DNA of 37,904 nt, taken from the NCBI GenBank assembly GCA_030619405.1, contig JAUXBK010000002.1, positions 1 through 37,904 of the forward strand. Reading direction: 5' to 3'. Shown here one piece after another: positions 5,183-26,869 of this stretch (the first letter of the stretch is position 1; each line of letters begins with the position of its first letter). A program made the position numbers and the translations under genes. The notes beneath the pieces were generated by a model. The model saw only the letters and a list, made by a program, of their open reading frames with translations, was not told where the DNA came from and did no database searches. Source of the DNA: Sedimenticola sp. (GTDB taxonomy: Bacteria; Pseudomonadota; Gammaproteobacteria; Chromatiales; Chromatiaceae).

Positions 5183-5202
5183 TGGGGTGATATGAAAAAT
5201 TG

Positions 5203-5668
5203 GCCGCGGATTCACGCGGATAAGACACGGATGTTGGTACGGCTTTGATACACGCCGGCGGCTGAAATCATATCATTACCCATATCTCGGTCAGAAAAAA
5301 GGTTCTCACACGAAGTCACGAAGACACGGAGAAGAAGAGATGAATGAGAATAAAATCGGAGATATTACCGTGAACTGTGCCGTAAAGGTTCCAATGCAAT
5401 TCGGCCCAGGTCTGCTGAAGAGTGACAATGAGGTCCTGATGAAAGACGGTATCTTCCGTATCGTAAACGGCAAACTGGAATGTCCGCTTTTTTCTTCTCT
5501 GTGTCTCCGTGCCTCCGTGTGAGGCAATTCTTTCGGGTCGAGCTATGGGTAACGGTATGAGCTGGAATGGGACCGAACCTTCCATCAGCAACTGCACCCG
5601 GAAAACAGCGTTCAAGGTGCGTGCGTCAATAAATCAATCCGCATTTGATCCGCGTTGATCCGCGGCTG
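5203..5668. mobile_element. Inverted-repeat cassette A (outer CCGCGGATTnACGCGGAT arms) containing a second nested IR cassette
   Basis: ggccgcggattcacgcggataagacacggat at left; aatccgcatttgatccgcgttgatccgcggctg at right; inner arms at ~5268-5338 and ~5491-5561. Confidence 0.7.
5340..5522 (+). pseudogene. Internally deleted GxxExxY-family relic
   Basis: MNENKIGDITVNCAVKVPMQFGPGLLKS (family N-terminus) joined directly to DNEVLMKDGIFRIVNGK (family C-terminus). Confidence 0.65.
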
Positions 5669-5685
5669 AAAATCTATATTATCCC

Positions 5686-6855
5686 GTGAACGATGACCTG
5701 ACGGAGATTTCACCGGAAATCCCACCAACGCTACAGAAGGCCACCTTCCCCTGTGCCCGTTGTGGAGCGACGCTGCATTTCGTTCCCGGCGAAGGCGAGC
5801 TTGAATGCCCCTGGTGCGGATACCAGTCCGTGATCGAGGATTCCGGGGAGCGCATTCTCGAATATGACCTGCAGGAGGCGGTTGGCGCCCTGCAGAAGGC
5901 CGAGCGGGCAGAACCTGACAGCGAGGCCATCGTCCATTGCGACACCTGCGGTGCCGAGTTTCGCCTGGAAGTCAACGTCCACTCCGGGGAGTGCCCCTTC
6001 TGTGGCAGCCCAGTGGTCACCGCCAGCGATCAGTTCCGGCTGTTCAAACCACGTTCACTGCTGCCCTTCCGCATCGGCCGGGAACAGGCGAGAGCGGCGT
6101 TTCAGGGGTGGATCGGCAACCTCTGGTTCGCCCCCGGCGCCGTTGCCCGATACGCCCGTGAAGAGGGCAAACTGACCGGCATCTACCTGCCCTACTGGAC
6201 CTACGACAGCCAGACCGTGACCCGCTACCAGGGAGAGCGGGGCACCACCTACTATGTGCGGGTCCAGGTGCCCGTGGTCGTCAACGGCCGGCGGACCATG
6301 CAGACCCGCCGTGTCCCCCGGGTTCGCTGGCGGAGTGTCAGCGGTGTGGTGAAACGCCACTTCGACGATGTGCTGATCGGTGCCACGACCACCCTGCCGC
6401 GGGCGATCACCGACCGGCTGCAACCCTGGGACCTGGGGAACCTGGTGCCCTACAGCGAAGAGTACCTCAGCGGCTTTCGCAGCGAGGTGTATCAGATCAA
6501 GGTAGACGAGGGGTTCGAGCAGGCGCGACTGGTGATGGACAGCACCATCCGCAACGATGTCAGGCGCGACATCGGCGGTGATCACCAGCGGATCACGCGC
6601 CTGCACACCAGCCACAGCCAGATGACTTTCAAACACCTGCTGCTGCCGGTATGGGCAGCCGCATTCCGCTACCGGGGCAAGAGTTACCGCTTCGTCATCA
6701 ACGGCAGGACCGGCAAGGTGCAGGGCGAGCGACCCTATAGCTGGATAAAGATCGGGCTGGCCATCATTGCTGGCCTCCTGGTCGCTGCCGGTGTGATCTG
6801 GGCCTTGAACGAATACGGGGTTCTCCAGCAGACGAGCTACGGATCCTTTCCATAA
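5686..6855 (+). CDS. Double zinc-ribbon (TFIIB/PriA-like zinc ribbon) protein with C-terminal TM helix
   Basis: CARCGATLHFVPGEGELECPWCG and CDTCGAEFRLEVNVHSGECPFCG; hydrophobic IGLAIIAGLLVAAGVIWAL near C-terminus; GTG start. Confidence 0.75.
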   Translation: MNDDLTEISPEIPPTLQKATFPCARCGATLHFVPGEGELECPWCGYQSVIEDSGERILEYDLQEAVGALQKAERAEPDSEAIVHCDTCGAEFRLEVNVHSGECPFCGSPVVTASDQFRLFKPRSLLPFRIGREQARAAFQGWIGNLWFAPGAVARYAREEGKLTGIYLPYWTYDSQTVTRYQGERGTTYYVRVQVPVVVNGRRTMQTRRVPRVRWRSVSGVVKRHFDDVLIGATTTLPRAITDRLQPWDLGNLVPYSEEYLSGFRSEVYQIKVDEGFEQARLVMDSTIRNDVRRDIGGDHQRITRLHTSHSQMTFKHLLLPVWAAAFRYRGKSYRFVINGRTGKVQGERPYSWIKIGLAIIAGLLVAAGVIWALNEYGVLQQTSYGSFP

Positions 6856-6947
6856 GCAGCACCATCTTCAATCTATCCGTATCCGTTCACGGGATAAAAA
6901 GATATTCAGCCGCGGATTGACGCGGATTACACACGGATTGATTTATT

Positions 6948-7144
6948 GTAACTTCTCACTCTCCCGGGGCAGTTTCGTAGGGGGGATAAGGCGCGCCCAC
7001 AGACCTCCTCTCTTGCTCCCCTCTCATGCGCGCCGCATCCACCAATGGCCCGCCCGCATGCCGCAATGCTCAGGATGAATGGTGGATGCGCTAAGCTTAT
7101 CCCCCCTACAAAGTCCAGGTTGCCCCGACTTATTGAGAAGTTAC
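6948..7144. mobile_element. MITE, IS66-like ends (GTAACTTCTCA...TGAGAAGTTAC)
   Basis: 11-bp perfect TIR; flanks gatttatt / gatttaat form an 8-bp target duplication with one mismatch; lies within cassette B. Confidence 0.75.
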
Positions 7145-7275
7145 GATTTAATAACACAAGCTTCTTGAACGCTACTTTATTCGGCGCCGAAGTTGATTAG
7201 CAGCTCGATCTCCGCCCCGATTAGCCTCCAACTCGCTGCACAAATGTGCCTTCGTGTATCTAAGCCATAACAAAA
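7145..7275 (-). pseudogene. GxxExxY-family C-terminal relic (frameshifted)
   Basis: Reverse complement contains gagctgctaatcaacttcggcgcc (ELLINFGA) and aataaagtagcgttcaagaagcttgtg (NKVAFKKLV), homologous to the relic in cassette C. Confidence 0.6.
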
Positions 7276-7374
7276 TCCGTGTGTAATCCGCGTCAATCCG
7301 CGGCTGAATGCCTATTATGATCCCGTGCACGGATACGATATTTGTTACACTGTGTCTTAATTAACGAAGTAATC

Positions 7375-26723: not shown

Positions 26724-26869
26724 GTAACTTCTCAATAACCCGAGGCAAACGGGTAGGGTGGATCAAGGAGCGCAGCGACGGATCCACCAACGCTCCGTAG
26801 CCTGATGTATCCGCTCCGCTTGATACACCCTACATTTTAGATTCTTGCCTGAACTTATTGAGAAGTTAC
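26724..26869. mobile_element. MITE, IS66-like, 146 bp
   Basis: 15-bp perfect TIR GTAACTTCTCAATAA/TTATTGAGAAGTTAC; perfect 8-bp duplication aagagaaa at 26716-26723 and 26870-26877. Confidence 0.88.

Follow-up and report, generated by a model that had tools for sequence, protein, structure and literature searches.

A MITE-like element with a GxxExxY relic nested inside an older element, and a putative repeat-recognising nuclease of inverted-arm cassettes

Introduction

A repeat-bounded cassette of Sedimenticola sp. encloses a second pair of inverted repeats of a different kind, and between these lies a 60-aa open reading frame that joins the beginning of a GxxExxY protein to its end. The locus raises the question of what such a cassette within a cassette is, and whether a given repeat type belongs with a given type of GxxExxY protein, as the original prediction had proposed. 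The window, namely the whole stretch of 37,904 nucleotides that was analysed, is contig C90 of a metagenome-assembled genome (2.33 Mb in 244 contigs, 84% complete). The mention of GxxExxY met in the open-access literature is made only in passing, and no account of flanking repeats for the family was found in that literature; one may exist elsewhere.

Results

The inner element and the cassettes around it

The inner element, referred to here as type 2, is a MITE-like unit of 291 bp (5269-5559, plus strand) with the ends CATATCATTACCCATATCTCG and CATACCGTTACCCATAGCTCG, recognised by its inverted repeat, its copies and the ends that they share. Its left arm (5268-5336, plus strand) is composed of an outer inverted repeat of 13-20 nt followed by tandem CACGAAG/CACGGAG units, and its right arm (5492-5560, minus strand) was delimited by inverted-repeat comparison. 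The arms, 69 nt each and 155 nt apart, are 78% complementary, and the first 12 kb of the window contain no longer inverted pair. They are bordered by a target-site duplication, GGCTGAAAT on the left (5260-5268, plus strand) and AGCTGGAAT on the right (5560-5568, plus strand), the two copies being identical at 7 of 9 positions. The predicted nesting of a distinct inverted pair is thus confirmed, with the inner arms lying between outer CCGCGGATT arms, and since the inner unit recurs in near-full-length copies, the nested pair is not a product of chance.

The enclosing cassette A (5183-5697) belongs to type 1, which carries CGCGGAT units. Its left terminus is degraded and its right terminus reads GTCATCGTTCACGGGAT on the minus strand, the terminus having been placed by comparison with other type-1 copies. 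Its CCGCGGATT arms occupy 5203-5232 (plus strand, tandem CGCGGAT-like units) and 5629-5668 (minus strand), and a degraded C-terminal GxxExxY remnant of the LLINFG type, also foreseen in the original prediction, is found at about 5575-5630 on the plus strand by comparison with other type-1 remnants. A second type-1 cassette, B (6879-7336), holds a remnant reading '...LLINFGAE' on the minus strand at about 7160-7206, and it too encloses a MITE-like unit (6945-7147), whose GAGAAGTTAC ends number 38 in the genome. A further copy of this GAGAAGTTAC-ended family lies at 26724-26869 of the window. Nesting is common in this genome, where type-1 arms number 153; on contig C92, for example, a 166-bp unit with type-2 ends encloses type-1 arms.

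Copies, ends and target duplications

The inner unit occurs in about a dozen or more copies in the window genome. Near-full-length copies of the 294-bp stretch lie on contigs C41, C19 and C58 (two copies), with identities of 76-86% and E values of 1e-67 to 1e-90, and many partial copies exist besides. The ends of type-2 elements read CATAYCGTTACCCATA-[ACT]-CTCG, and the outer CATAYCGTTACCCATA repeat is common to elements with different inner arms and to elements without a recognisable GxxExxY. Flanking 9-bp duplications matching at 7 or more of 9 positions border seven of nine two-ended type-2 elements, four of them perfectly (mispaired flanks give 2.8%), and 8 of 12 type-1 elements (mispaired flanks, 4.5%). 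Both types in the window genome are MITE-like families.

Around intact GxxExxY cassettes elsewhere, a fixed target duplication did not exceed the mispaired controls at 7 or more matching bases, and the outer CGTTACCCATA repeat was absent. Duplications of 9 bp are typical of DDE transposases, and since the intact cassettes possess neither feature, the duplications in the window genome may well come from such an enzyme. No transposase was found beside four solitary ends (contigs C240, C225, C83 and C88), where only housekeeping genes lie. Neither was an intact type-2 GxxExxY gene found in the window genome, which is 84% complete, nor an intact type-2 element in its relatives, of which G001 and G006 yielded only fragments and MITE-size units. 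In G001, a genome of the same genus, the contig ends at the place where the empty site was sought. The combination of intact gene, ends and target duplication in a single element, expected of an autonomous transposon with GxxExxY as its transposase, was not encountered: the intact cassettes have no fixed duplication, and no intact type-2 element came to light in the window genome or these relatives.

The 60-aa reading frame is a relic

The open reading frame inside the inner element (5340-5522, plus strand) is as originally described: it fuses the GxxExxY N-terminus to the C-terminal 'LMKDGIFRIVNGK', continuing as 'LMKDGIFRIVNGKLE', and the catalytic middle is missing. Its first 34 residues match intact GxxExxY proteins of other genomes at 56% (E 2e-10), and searches of the frame as a whole against Pfam and NCBIfam gave nothing up to E=10. 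It lacks D67, E77, K79, Q91 and Y95, residues that 180-186 of 188 intact relatives retain.

The deletion had been characterised as clean and in frame, which holds for the window copy but not for its sisters, wherein other junctions, frameshifts and early stops prevail. Eight copies oriented by this frame show about six different internal junctions, and most of their frames stop early. Only C236 has the junction of the window copy, in C41 the break falls at nearly the same point but disrupts the frame, and the junctions of C19, C58a, C58b, C129 and C229 differ; judging from the alignment, the breakpoint may fall at a CTGCTG (Leu-Leu) stretch found at both edges. In addition, the family stop TGA, as seen in the alignment of the other copies, is replaced by TGT in the window copy, whose frame consequently reads into the right arm.

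That the fusion is a working small protein, for instance an inhibitor that binds the repeats without cutting them, could be argued from its open frame with start and stop, and from the C19 and C129 copies, which likewise keep the frame through their respective deletions. However, the variety of junctions with mostly early stops, the lost family stop and the missing start codon of the C236 copy make this reading highly improbable, and a functional peptide was discarded as a candidate. Nothing in the copies suggests selection on the short frame. The 60-aa frame is a functionless relic whose in-frame join arose by coincidence, and the cleanness of the deletion has no functional meaning.

Intact GxxExxY genes lie between matched inverted arms

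For the family at large, 188 GxxExxY genes were gathered from relatives and from many phyla. Intact relatives match the PF13366 (PDDEXK_3) and TIGR04256 (GxxExxY protein) models far above cut-off, and 166 of the 188 keep all of E27, D67, E77, K79, Q91 and Y95, as is expected for an active site of the RecB/Cas4 kind. In the window genome a single intact GxxExxY gene was found, L001 (C110:20010-20357). Its AlphaFold2 model has a pLDDT of 95.7, and the best match among solved structures is SSO0001 (E 8e-4), a Cas4 protein. The catalytic residues and the fold of PD-(D/E)XK enzymes are thus found in the intact relatives, while the window frame lacks the catalytic residues.

Sufficient flank for an arm test, in which the 200 nt upstream were locally aligned with the reverse-complemented 200 nt downstream and a score of at least 16 was taken as a match, was available for 175 genes. 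Matched inverted arms surround 81% of them, against 9% when arms from different loci were combined and 0.9% when each locus was moved by 0.8-1 kb. An arm is built of roughly three 7-mers in tandem, which are separated by short spacers and conform to C-R-Y-N-R-A-N; CGCAAAG, CGCAGAG, CACAGAG, CGCCAAG, CACGAAG, CACGAAA and CGCAGAT are examples. The left and right arms of one gene agree in 101-123 of 123 cases, depending on the position, and these non-coding arms keep one motif across many phyla and across proteins that are 30-50% identical. The same architecture was seen again in isolate genomes and complete replicons. Around L001 itself the arms are of a third type, CGCAAAG, and their outer side runs into AAAGTC repeats; other CGCAAAG-type elements (on C55, C23 and C221) end in CATCTCGTTACCCATAACT. 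L354, a GxxExxY gene on a Sphingomonas parapaucimobilis replicon, sits between fabD and fabG (at 34 and 3 bp) with no recognisable arms.

The family is nearly absent from plasmids, being present in 8 of 72,556 records, and one query of phage records returned none. In this near-absence it is unlike an ordinary transposon.

The repeat unit follows the protein

Arms could be typed for 125 genes, these being the ones that fit a unit pattern chosen by eye, and changes of label on the protein tree were compared with those of shuffled labels. The unit type changes 47 times, against a shuffled mean of 86 and a minimum of 79, so that the flanking repeat type follows the protein phylogeny, as had been anticipated. 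The host label changes 74 times against 99 and is hence less well tracked by the protein tree than the repeat is. Single positions of the unit behave likewise, with observed against shuffled changes of 16/37, 21/39, 20/39 and 6/26 at positions 2, 4, 5 and 7; with the upstream arm only and a tree built without the C-terminal columns, the values are 19/38, 28/45, 20/39 and 9/27.

Because shuffling ignores relatedness, pairs chosen greedily on non-overlapping paths of the tree were also examined. Among 18 independent pairs that differ at position 2, the residue at alignment column 154, which stands two places after 'VN' in the C-terminal tail, is absent on the A side in 12 and on the G side in none. 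In a simple count, the tail is missing from 38 of 48 A-type genes and present in 74 of 76 G-type genes (112 of 124), and a post hoc rule fits 118 of 124. The residues that track position 2 are located at and just after the last strand (118-122). Since many columns were scanned, the link between position 2 and the tail is to be taken as a strong lead and falls short of a clean test, and restricting the independent pairs to well-supported branches left 6, with no significant result. Position 7 (G versus the rest) tracks a two-residue indel in 121 of 124 genes, mainly through one deep split. Of the eight plasmid-borne genes, which lay outside the discovery set, four had readable arms, and these fit at position 7 in 4 of 4 and at position 2 in 3 of 4; the other four had no clear arms. 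The same scan, uncorrected for the number of columns, points to columns 34 and 82 as possible further specificity residues, as G at position 5 goes with Thr at column 34 (8:0 over 19 pairs) and G at position 4 with Arg at column 82 (7:0 over 18 pairs).

Within the window genome, remnants of the CACGGAG type (type 2) match the CAC-unit clade (L144/L156-L159), and those of the CGCGGAT type (type 1) match the other class, with units ending in T or A. The suggestion that each of two repeat-end types is paired with its own GxxExxY subtype is therefore borne out for the pairing in this genome, but not for the number, as more than two repeat types exist both here and across the family.

Dispersed repeats match the resident gene

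Pairs of the repeats are also dispersed through genomes, up to about 390 copies per genome and mostly of the resident gene's type. CACGAAG pairs number 11-255 in seven genomes with a CACGAAG-type gene, 0-6 in eleven with CGCAGAG-type genes and 0-3 in twelve without a GxxExxY gene. For CGCAGAG pairs the counts are 2-392 where the genome has CGCAGAG-type genes and 0-8 where it has the CACGAAG type. One genome, G157, has both gene types and both repeats. The difference between types gives Mann-Whitney p values of 0.0002 for CACGAAG and 0.05 for CGCAGAG, and within one host family of 0.005 and 0.35, respectively, the latter being a weak enrichment. The window genome is an exception to this match, in that it contains 95 CACGAAG pairs, arranged as close inverted, REPIN-like doublets of roughly 70 nt, and no CACGAAG-type GxxExxY gene was found in its 84% complete assembly. 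Examples of the doublets are C57:7051-7120, C217:8864-8934 and C237:356-426.

Discussion

Based on the anatomy, copies, duplications, covariation and matched dispersed repeats observed here, we propose that GxxExxY is probably a repeat-recognising nuclease residing in inverted-arm cassettes, and that the window element would be its non-autonomous, MITE-like derivative. The protein would be a small Cas4/RecB-like PD-(D/E)XK nuclease, and its gene lies in a compact cassette bounded by inverted CRYNRAN arms. Most likely it recognises its own arms, because the unit co-varies with the protein, notably position 2 with the tail, and because the dispersed repeats match; both recognition and cutting are inferred. 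The window element would derive from a cassette of the CAC-unit subtype that lost its catalytic middle and gained or kept the outer terminal repeat CATAYCGTTACCCATA. It would then have spread in the genome with 9-bp target duplications, presumably through an enzyme acting in trans, and inserted itself into an older element derived from the CGCGGAT subtype. The dispersed arms and MITE-like derivatives could be relics or substrates of the GxxExxY nuclease.

The strongest competitor, to which we give somewhat less than an even chance, is that we are dealing with an ordinary MITE: a DDE transposase would recognise the outer CATAYCGTTACCCATA and move the window element, and GxxExxY would be only a captured passenger without a share in the movement. 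The length of the duplications, the sharing of the outer repeat by elements with other arms or no recognisable GxxExxY, and the want of both repeat and duplication at intact cassettes all speak for it. However, the four solitary ends have no transposase beside them, both main repeat families of the window genome carry GxxExxY remnants, and a passenger leaves the matched arms around GxxExxY genes in general unexplained. A different objection concerns the arms themselves, which could co-vary with the protein only through joint inheritance of the cassette, the protein not reading them. Arms and gene are indeed inherited together, and descent accounts for some of the covariation; both the clade and the repeat type pass down the lineage, switches at position 7 are few, and the support-limited pair test is not significant. 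Nevertheless, joint inheritance as the whole account is unlikely, in view of the single motif that the arms keep over such divergent proteins and phyla, the agreement of both arms of a gene, the repeated switches of position 2 with the same kind of tail change, and the dispersed copies that match the resident gene. As for an artefact of assembly or binning, with repeats collapsed or misjoined, the fragmentation of the genome into 244 contigs and the repeats near contig ends might invite it, but the perfect 9-bp duplications around individual copies, the related elements in two other genomes, and the recurrence of the architecture in isolates and complete replicons render it scarcely credible.

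The proposed nuclease cassette resembles the REPtron, in which RAYT (TnpA-REP), a Y1 HUH transposase, is associated with REP/REPIN repeats (PMC8266576, PMC3116915, PMC2817692). In both, a small nuclease gene lies between inverted copies of a short repeat of a dispersed type, many copies of the same type are scattered in each genome, repeat and protein co-vary, and the gene is chromosomal and almost absent from plasmids and phages. However, the GxxExxY enzyme is of the PD-(D/E)XK type (PF13366, with a fold nearest to SSO0001) whereas RAYT is HUH, and its arms are tandem CRYNRAN 7-mers in inverted pairs whereas REP is a palindromic hairpin with a GTAG/CGTC tag, which was not seen in the GxxExxY arms that were read. 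As enzyme fold and repeat structure differ, the GxxExxY system would work like RAYT/REP without being a member of it. With MITEs the window-type elements share a size of about 230-320 bp, terminal inverted repeats, 9-bp duplications, high copy number, an internally deleted coding gene and the lack of an intact transposase gene inside; unlike in MITEs, the internal relic is a PD-(D/E)XK protein and not a transposase, and in the search for an autonomous partner with the same ends no transposase was found beside the four solitary ends examined. With Cas4, lambda exonuclease and RecB-type nucleases GxxExxY shares the fold and the residues D, E-x-K and Q-x-x-x-Y, but it is only about 125 aa long, its consensus has no iron-sulfur cysteines, and in the regions read it does not lie next to CRISPR genes.

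A more far-reaching proposal envisages a new class of repeat system whose dedicated enzyme is GxxExxY. This Cas4/RecB-like PD-(D/E)XK nuclease would recognise the tandem CRYNRAN arms, in part with its C-terminal tail, and in many bacterial phyla it would spread or maintain dispersed repeats by the hundred, using neither HUH nor DDE chemistry. We put this forward tentatively, as possible but on balance doubtful. In such a case, the task of RAYT/REP would have been solved a second time, by an enzyme of another fold.

In conclusion, the correspondence between repeat and tail gives GxxExxY, a common family without an assigned function, a testable role, and the link could explain a large class of intergenic repeats of the CACGAAG, CGCAGAG and CCGCGGATT kinds. 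The element in the window would then be the kind of broken derivative that such a system leaves behind.
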